NCBI RefSeq assembly: GCF_003386795.1
Contig: NZ_QTUC01000001.1
Location: 3,162,001 to 3,226,000 of the forward strand
Direction of reading: 5' to 3'
Source of the DNA: Thermasporomyces composti
GTDB lineage: Bacteria > Actinomycetota > Actinomycetes > Propionibacteriales > Actinopolymorphaceae
Length of the DNA stretch: 64,000 nucleotides
Positions 56,704 through 58,320 of this stretch are shown piece by piece. The notes below the pieces were generated by a model, which saw only the letters and a list, made by a program, of their open reading frames with translations, did no database searches and was not told the DNA's origin. The first letter of the stretch is position 1, and the number at the start of each line of letters is the position of its first letter. A program made the position numbers and the translations under genes.

Positions 56704-56756
56704 CCGGCCGGTGATGCGAGGTGAGAGGCGGGTCACACCCTCCACGCCTCGAACCA

Positions 56757-56784
56757 TGTCACAGGAACGTCGGGCGACCTCGTC
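56757..56784 (+). promoter_or_regulatory. Candidate ECF41-type promoter of the AhpD-like/sigma factor pair
   Basis: TGTCACA (56757-56763) and CGTC (56781-56784) are 17 bp apart. As I recall, ECF41 sigma factors recognise TGTCACA at -35 and CGTC at -10 upstream of their partner gene. The site is 45 bp before the partner start codon, and the sigma factor is the next gene. Confidence 0.65.
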
Positions 56785-56828
56785 GTCGAGGGTGTGAGGC
56801 GAAGCCCTACGACGACGAGAGGGTCCAG

Positions 56829-57347
56829 ATGAGCGCACGACTCAACCCCTTCGCGAGCCCGACCGCCGGGGCGTTCCTCAAGCACCTTGTGCCGGCCGCC
56901 ATGACTCTCAAAGAGTCCTCGCTGCCGAGGTCCACGCAGGAGCTGGTGGCGCTCCGCATCAGCCAGATCAACGGCTGCGGGTTCTGTGTCGACATGCACA
57001 CCAAGGACGCCGCCGCAGCGGGCGAGTCGGCGGTACGGCTGAACCTGGTGGCGGCCTGGCGGGAAGCGACGGTCTTCACCGAGGCCGAACGCGCCGCGCT
57101 CGCGCTGGCCGAGGAAGGAACCCGCCTCGCGGACCGGGCCGGCGGGGTCAGCGACGACGTGTGGAACGAGGCCGCCAAGCACTACGACGAGGAACAGCTC
57201 ATGGCCCTCGTCCTCCTGGTCGCCACCATGAACTTCTTCAACCGGGTCAACGTCATCAGCCGGCGACCGGCCGGTGACTACGTGCCCGGGCAGTACGAGG
57301 TGGGCCCGGCACACCTGGGTAAGCCCGGCACGGCTGAGATGAGCTGA
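56829..57347 (+). CDS. Carboxymuconolactone decarboxylase/AhpD-like protein, ECF41 partner
   Basis: Members are small helical proteins related to the peroxidase AhpD; the function of the ECF41-linked ones is not established. The 172-residue protein has the redox motif C50-x-x-C53 with H57 (GCGFCVDMHTKD) after ELVALRISQIN, as in AhpD-type peroxidase relatives. ATG 56829 follows GAGAGGG. The upstream TGTCACA...CGTC element and the sigma gene 52 bp downstream mark it as the COE partner of an ECF41 system. Confidence 0.9.
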   Translation: MSARLNPFASPTAGAFLKHLVPAAMTLKESSLPRSTQELVALRISQINGCGFCVDMHTKDAAAAGESAVRLNLVAAWREATVFTEAERAALALAEEGTRLADRAGGVSDDVWNEAAKHYDEEQLMALVLLVATMNFFNRVNVISRRPAGDYVPGQYEVGPAHLGKPGTAEMS

Positions 57348-57399
57348 GATGAGCATGGCATCGGCTCGGGTACCGAGCGGCCGGCGGCAAGGAGCGACC

Positions 57400-58320
57400 G
57401 TGAGCAAGGCTGAGGAGTTCGAACGGCTGCGTCCGCTGCTGTTCTCGATCGCCTACCGGATCCTGGGCAGCGTCGGCGACGCCGAGGACGCGGTGCAGGA
57501 GGCCTGGCTGCGCTTCGACAGCCTGCCGACGCAGCCCGAGTCGGTCAAGGCGTACCTGGCGACCACGGTGACCCGGATCGCGATCGACTCCTTGCGCTCC
57601 GCCCGGGTGCGGCGGGAGCAGTACGTCGGTCCCTGGTTCCCCGAGCCGTTGCTCGACGACCCGTACGAAGACCCGGCGCGGGCGGCGGAGTTGGCCGACT
57701 CGGTGTCCATGGCGGCGCTGCTGCTGCTGGAGAGGCTGAGCCCGCTGGAGCGGGCGGTGTTCGTCCTGCGGGAGGTGTTCGGCTTCGGGTTCGACGAGGT
57801 CGCCGCCGCGGTGGGCCGTTCGGAGGCCGCGTGCCGCCAGCTCGTGGTCCGGGCCCGACGGCACATGCGGGCGGGACTGCCGAGGTTCGAGGCCGTCCGG
57901 GAGGAGCGTGACCGGCTGGCGGCCCGGTTCTTCGATGCCTTGCGTGACGGTGACGTGGGTGGTCTGCGCGAGCTGCTCGCCGCCGACGTGACGATGACTG
58001 GCGACGGCGGGGGCAAGGCGCCGCGGTTCGCGGACGTCATCGCAGGAGCGGACAGGGTGGTCCGGCTGCTGCTCTTCCTCTCTCGCGGGCTGGCTCGGCT
58101 CGGCGCGACCTTCGACCGTTGTGACGTCAACGGCGGGCCTGGCGCGATCACCCGGGACCGTGACGGCAAGGTCCTGAACGTGATCGCGCTCGAGGTCTGG
58201 GGCGGGCAGATCCAGACGATCCGCTCCGTCCTCAACCCCGACAAGCTCGACCACCTCGGGCCGGTCGGCAACCTGTGGTCCGTCCACCGGGAGCTCGTGC
58301 GTCGCCGCTCAGCGCGGTGA
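57400..58320 (+). CDS. ECF41-family RNA polymerase sigma factor (SigJ-like) with SnoaL-like C-terminal domain
   Basis: ECF41 sigma factors are controlled by their own C-terminal extension, not by a separate anti-sigma factor. The 306-residue protein has sigma region 2 (about 8-75, AYRILGSVGDAEDAVQEAWLR), region 4 (about 110-160) and a SnoaL-like domain (about 170-300). All three ECF41 hallmarks are present: WFPEP (79-83, usually WLPEP), DGGGK (202-206) and NPDKL (279-283). GTG 57400 has AAGGAG 5 nt upstream and is preferred over ATG 57349. It is probably co-transcribed with the AhpD-like gene. Confidence 0.93.
   Translation: MSKAEEFERLRPLLFSIAYRILGSVGDAEDAVQEAWLRFDSLPTQPESVKAYLATTVTRIAIDSLRSARVRREQYVGPWFPEPLLDDPYEDPARAAELADSVSMAALLLLERLSPLERAVFVLREVFGFGFDEVAAAVGRSEAACRQLVVRARRHMRAGLPRFEAVREERDRLAARFFDALRDGDVGGLRELLAADVTMTGDGGGKAPRFADVIAGADRVVRLLLFLSRGLARLGATFDRCDVNGGPGAITRDRDGKVLNVIALEVWGGQIQTIRSVLNPDKLDHLGPVGNLWSVHRELVRRRSAR

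Follow-up and report, generated by a model that had tools for sequence, protein, structure and literature searches.

The 64 kb stretch of DNA analysed here (the window) contains an ECF41 sigma factor gene behind a gene for an AhpD-like protein of the CMD family, and the pair is best read as a self-regulated ECF41 operon of the published type. In addition, a comparison across about 90 relatives suggests that the sigma factor also controls an unlinked DoxX-like gene, and that it shares its promoters with a CRP-type regulator. We regard this wider arrangement, an ECF41 operon with a DoxX target in trans and a CRP/GlxR-type regulator acting at both promoters, as probable on comparative grounds.

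The CMD-sigma operon and its promoter

The features of the locus are as follows.

56722..56737, + strand: TGAGA-GGCGGG-TCACA, a CRP-type element that begins 35 nt upstream of the -35 element and matches TGTGA-N6-TCACA at 9/10 positions
56757..56763, + strand: ECF41 -35 element TGTCACA, from the sequence, with TGTCAC in 79/80 orthologous loci
56781..56784, + strand: ECF41 -10 element CGTC, spacer N17, from the sequence and the orthologous loci
56829..57347, + strand: target gene for an AhpD-like CxxC protein of the CMD family, 172 aa (PF02627, TIGR00778)
57389..57394, + strand: likely ribosome-binding site AAGGAG of the sigma gene, from the sequence
57400..58320, + strand: ECF41 (SigJ-type) sigma factor with a SnoaL-like C-terminal domain, 306 aa (SigX4, SigJ, 5xe7, orthologue starts)

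The three motifs that the initial annotation had read in the sigma gene were all located (WFPEP at 57634-57648, DGGGK at 58003-58017 and NPDKL at 58234-58248), and 71 of 80 orthologues have all three. The protein has the sigma2 and sigma4 regions and the C-terminal extension of ECF41 factors, with W[L/F]PEP in the linker and DGGGK and NPDKL in the extension. Its proposed ECF41 identity is borne out by the ECF41-type models of NCBIfam, SigX4 (351.7 bits, cut-off 323) and SigJ (332 bits, cut-off 271). Pfam recognizes Sigma70_r2 and Sigma70_r4_2, and the claim of a SnoaL-like C-terminal domain held in part: the whole protein passes SigX4 and SigJ, but the SnoaL_2 match itself stays below the Pfam cut-off (22 vs 27 bits). 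The closest solved structure is that of M. tuberculosis SigJ (5xe7, E 5e-52, residues 4-283), which falls under the same NCBIfam SigJ subfamily model, a likeness at the level of the sigma protein. The codon aligned with GTG 57400 is GTG in 68/80 orthologues and ATG in 10/80, and since 78/80 therefore have a GTG or ATG at this position, the sigma factor most likely starts at 57400 and not at 57349, and comprises 306 aa. From the CMD stop to this start there are 52 nt, compared with a median of 139 nt in relatives (L123-L202).

The gene in front of it was correctly described earlier as encoding an AhpD-like CxxC protein: the CxxC is CGFC, and both PF02627 (80.6 bits in Pfam) and TIGR00778 are matched. 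It takes the place of the COE gene (carboxymuconolactone decarboxylase, oxidoreductase or epimerase) that neighbours ECF41 factors. Residues 38-57, ELVALRISQINGCGFCVDMH, form an E-X11-CXXC-X3-H signature, found in 71/73 orthologues, which we take to be the AhpD proton relay, and the closest solved structures are 2ijc and 2o4d (PA0269).

The promoter motif TGTCACA-N17-CGTC noted upstream of the CMD gene occupies 56757-56784, is separated from the CMD ATG by 44 nt and has the form TGTCACA-N16(+-1)-CGTC that is expected before the COE gene of an ECF41 locus. It is the single match to the promoter pattern in the window, where the chance expectation is 0.21 and 18 of 100 shuffles have one. The genome search proposed in the initial annotation returned 12 matches in the source genome (4.37 Mb) vs about 14 by chance (0.21 per 64 kb scaled). 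Because this is about the chance number, the motif alone is not significant; it is strong because of its position and its conservation. In the comparison with other ECF41 loci, also proposed there, we used 80 orthologous loci from other Actinomycetota, with sigma factors 67-77% identical to that of the window. TGTCAC[A/T/G]-N16/17-CGTC was found in 79 of them, and in 73 the promoter and the sigma gene are separated by a CMD gene, whose product is 62-79% identical and whose start mostly falls 66-67 nt past the beginning of the -35 element. The clade usually has a spacer of 16, so that the spacer of 17 in the window amounts to one extra base in what is otherwise the same promoter. When the CMD promoters were aligned, the mean information was 2.1 bits per base in the -35 element and 1.9 in the -10 element, compared with 1.1 for the spacer and 0.6 for the flanks.

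Since the promoter is kept in 79/80 loci and the same CMD gene in 73/80, the self-regulated operon that had been proposed for this pair is well supported, by the conserved gene order and promoter as well as by the family models. Such an operon is already known for ECF41 and is in line with the work of Wecke et al. 2012 (PMC3426412), who reported the promoter before the COE gene in 97/107 loci of COE-sigma order and no promoter motif ahead of the sigma gene in that order. The systems studied there, Ecf41-YdfG of B. licheniformis and Ecf41-RSP_0606 of R. sphaeroides (PMC3426412), resemble the window in the sigma motifs and C-terminal extension, in the neighbouring CMD gene and in the TGTCACA promoter before it. 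They differ from the window in its spacer of 17, in a spacer sequence that is conserved within the actinobacterial clade of the window, in the conserved CRP-type element upstream, and in the second, unlinked DoxX-like gene with the promoter.

The sigma-promoter pair stays within the clade while the target enzyme changes. In the order of the source organism, the same sigma clade keeps the promoter, and its target slot holds an epimerase, an SDR or a FAD-linked oxidase, or is empty. In a tree of 96 sigma proteins, in which several deeper forks are weak, the target-swapped loci group together as a single supported clade of 15, nested within lineages that have CMD. Because the enzyme is exchanged under a constant sigma-promoter pair, it cannot by itself be used to guess the signal.

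A DoxX-like gene with the same promoter

One of the 12 genome matches, an exact TGTCACA-N17-CGTC, is located 37 nt before the start of a DoxX_2 gene (127 aa, PF13564; G000:C1:2028246-2028626, minus strand) whose ribosome-binding site is good. This DoxX gene and the sigma gene are 1.19 Mb apart, and up to 8 kb around DoxX the source genome has no ECF41-like sigma gene. In four Streptomyces loci (L150, L162, L169, L174), a DoxX homologue (57-60%) is divergent from the CMD-sigma operon, and an exact ECF41 promoter of its own lies 37-50 nt upstream of the DoxX start; in L169, CMD has been lost beside the divergent DoxX. Unlinked DoxX genes with the promoter were also found in Streptomonospora alba (L210) and a Streptosporangiales MAG (L230), and one in G027 (L061) has a near match whose -10 is CATC. 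The flanks of the unlinked DoxX genes, about 8 kb per side or to the contig end (2.2 kb downstream of DoxX in L230), contained no sigma match. The strict motif occurs in 10 of 76 DoxX upstream regions vs a mean of 0.019 per shuffle set, with shared ancestry ignored, and the reversed motif in none of the 76. Five DoxX genes in the clade of the tree that holds the window's copy lack a sigma gene in the flanks fetched first, and the motif is present in all five, of which L213 has another ECF41 about 5 kb away; no unlinked gene outside this clade carries it. Given the exact promoter and the divergent Streptomyces homologues with ECF41 promoters of their own, the DoxX-like gene is likely a second target of the sigma factor, in trans. 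According to Wecke et al. 2012 (PMC3426412), who found only one target in B. licheniformis and in R. sphaeroides, an ECF41 factor has a single target; here, a DoxX gene in trans carries the promoter as well.

The source genome has a second ECF41-type sigma gene (L010, G000:C1:1698591-1702487), which is below the SigX4 cut-off and has a convergent CMD gene preceded by CGTCACA-N16-CGTC without a CRP-type element; several ECF41 are also present in G096 and G105. With two such factors in the genome, the one in the window is presumed to read the DoxX promoter. Matches before two FAD monooxygenases (L004, L005) were dropped as targets, as they are not conserved in orthologues; the one in L004 (1501-1527, G000:C1:1379244) is an exact ECF41-like promoter 50 nt before its gene. 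Another match is 139 nt from the start of a PNPOx-like gene (L008). Motif counts in 58 relatives cover a wide range, with genome size and composition as confounders, and no conclusion was drawn from them.

Many DoxX genes are linked to more distant sigma factors and lack TGTCACA, and these probably use another promoter. Upstream of DoxX genes divergent from distant SnoaL-type sigma genes (L063, L065, L067, L070, L087, L080), GTTACC...GGTAAC and a CGTCATGGGT-type sequence are shared in place of TGTCACA, which probably reflects another sigma group with its own promoter. Upstream of DoxX in L060 and L061, TGTCACA-N16 is followed by CATC and not by CGTC, which may represent a variant -10 element.

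A CRP-type element upstream of the -35 element

In 72 CMD promoters aligned on the -35 element, two more half-sites are conserved, GGAGA and TCACA, and the six bases between them are less conserved. With up to 4 mismatches, GAGACGCAGGTCACA was found in 60/75 CMD promoters vs 0.9 by chance, in 54 of them exactly 23 nt before the -35 element. At least 8/10 positions of TGTGA-N6-TCACA are matched in 58/74 CMD promoters, a level that none of their shuffled controls reaches and that is reached by 0/13 promoters of the target-swapped sister clade (Fisher p = 7e-8 for 58/74 vs 0/13, with shared ancestry ignored). Across the whole window, a 9/10 match occurs just once, as TGAGAGGCGGGTCACA (56722-56737). 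In the source genome's DoxX promoter, GTGACGCACGTCACG stands at the usual distance (8/10), and the pattern GWGASGCRSGTCACR, which was written from the CMD and DoxX sites, matches in the source genome only before these two genes. The element is lacking in 16/74 CMD promoters, in the operon of Actinopolymorpha pittospori (L018, same family), the closest relative with such an operon, and in the DoxX promoters of Streptomonospora alba (L210) and the MAG (L230).

The element usually starts 24 nt before the -35 element, and that of the window is 11 bp, or one helical turn, further upstream, a shift that also occurs in L196. If transcription starts 6-9 nt past CGTC, the centre of the window's site falls near -61 to -64, compared with about -50 to -52 in most relatives, positions which we take to lie on one face of the helix in keeping with CRP promoter geometry.

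By its form, TGTGA-N6-TCACA, the element is a putative Crp/GlxR site. The layout is shared with the sites of Crp in Streptomyces, GlxR in C. glutamicum and CRP Rv3676 in M. tuberculosis, from which the CMD promoters differ in a left half-site with GAG and not GTG. Since the CRP consensus was chosen after the element had been seen, the identity of the bound protein is one that we infer; it is helped because the DoxX site fits the S. coelicolor Crp motif GTG(N)6GNCAC (PMC10033298) exactly and because the source genome has one clear Crp, whose homology to M. tuberculosis CRP and C. glutamicum GlxR spans the whole protein. Our literature search returned no paper joining the cAMP receptor protein and ECF41.

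Proposed regulation and its alternatives

In the arrangement that we favour, the sigma factor would be held in check by its own SnoaL-like domain until a signal relieves the restraint. It would then transcribe the CMD-sigma operon from TGTCACA-N17-CGTC, which would create positive feedback, and would transcribe the unlinked DoxX-like gene in trans from the same promoter. A CRP/GlxR-type regulator, most likely an activator, would bind the element upstream of both promoters, and the AhpD-like protein, a thiol-peroxidase candidate, might form a small redox-defence unit with the DoxX-like membrane protein. The module had been called complete in the initial annotation, a description that we do not find supported, as a DoxX-like gene elsewhere has the same promoter and the CRP-type element points to an input besides the C-terminal domain.

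The element might instead be bound by a dimeric repressor or activator that is not Crp and is encoded by an unlinked gene, with the rest of the arrangement as above. Such a protein is favoured by the late choice of the consensus and by the left half-site, which in most promoters deviates from TGTGA, as GGAGA or TGAGA, but the 5-6-5 half-site layout with an intact TCACA half, the agreement of the DoxX site of the same genome with the S. coelicolor motif and the one clear Crp-type HTH protein speak for Crp, and we consider another regulator rather unlikely. That the sigma gene is read mainly from a separate promoter located between it and CMD, in which case the pair would not be self-regulated, appears highly improbable. 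The median gap of 139 nt in relatives is in favour of this reading, but the gap here is just 52 nt, the window has no ECF41 motif before the sigma gene, there is generally one motif per locus, and Wecke et al. (PMC3426412) reported none at that position in the COE-ECF order.

It is also conceivable, and in our view unlikely, that the CMD-sigma operon is the sole target, the DoxX motif being a relic or read by the other ECF41 factor and the upstream element being non-functional. Single-target behaviour has been published for B. licheniformis and R. sphaeroides (PMC3426412), the genome-wide motif count equals chance, and the second of the two ECF41 genes in the source genome might serve the DoxX promoter. 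Against this, the DoxX promoter and linkage are conserved across orders, the presumed promoter of the other ECF41 has CGTCACA and no CRP-type element, and the upstream element of the CMD promoters is conserved at a fixed spacing.

If the favoured arrangement is correct, the DoxX target and the CRP-type input would be new additions for the ECF41 group, and the DoxX finding questions the rule of one target per ECF41 factor. We tentatively suggest that an actinobacterial ECF41 subfamily may have a regulon of two targets, DoxX and the CMD operon, at whose promoters a CRP/GlxR-type activator works alongside the sigma factor, an arrangement for which we found no description for ECF41 in the literature searched. 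The conserved sites offer exact targets for mutation in tractable Streptomyces. A second conserved target and a conserved CRP-type input would narrow the signal and purpose of ECF41 factors, and they point to a membrane or thiol redox function that may be under cAMP-type or carbon-status control.
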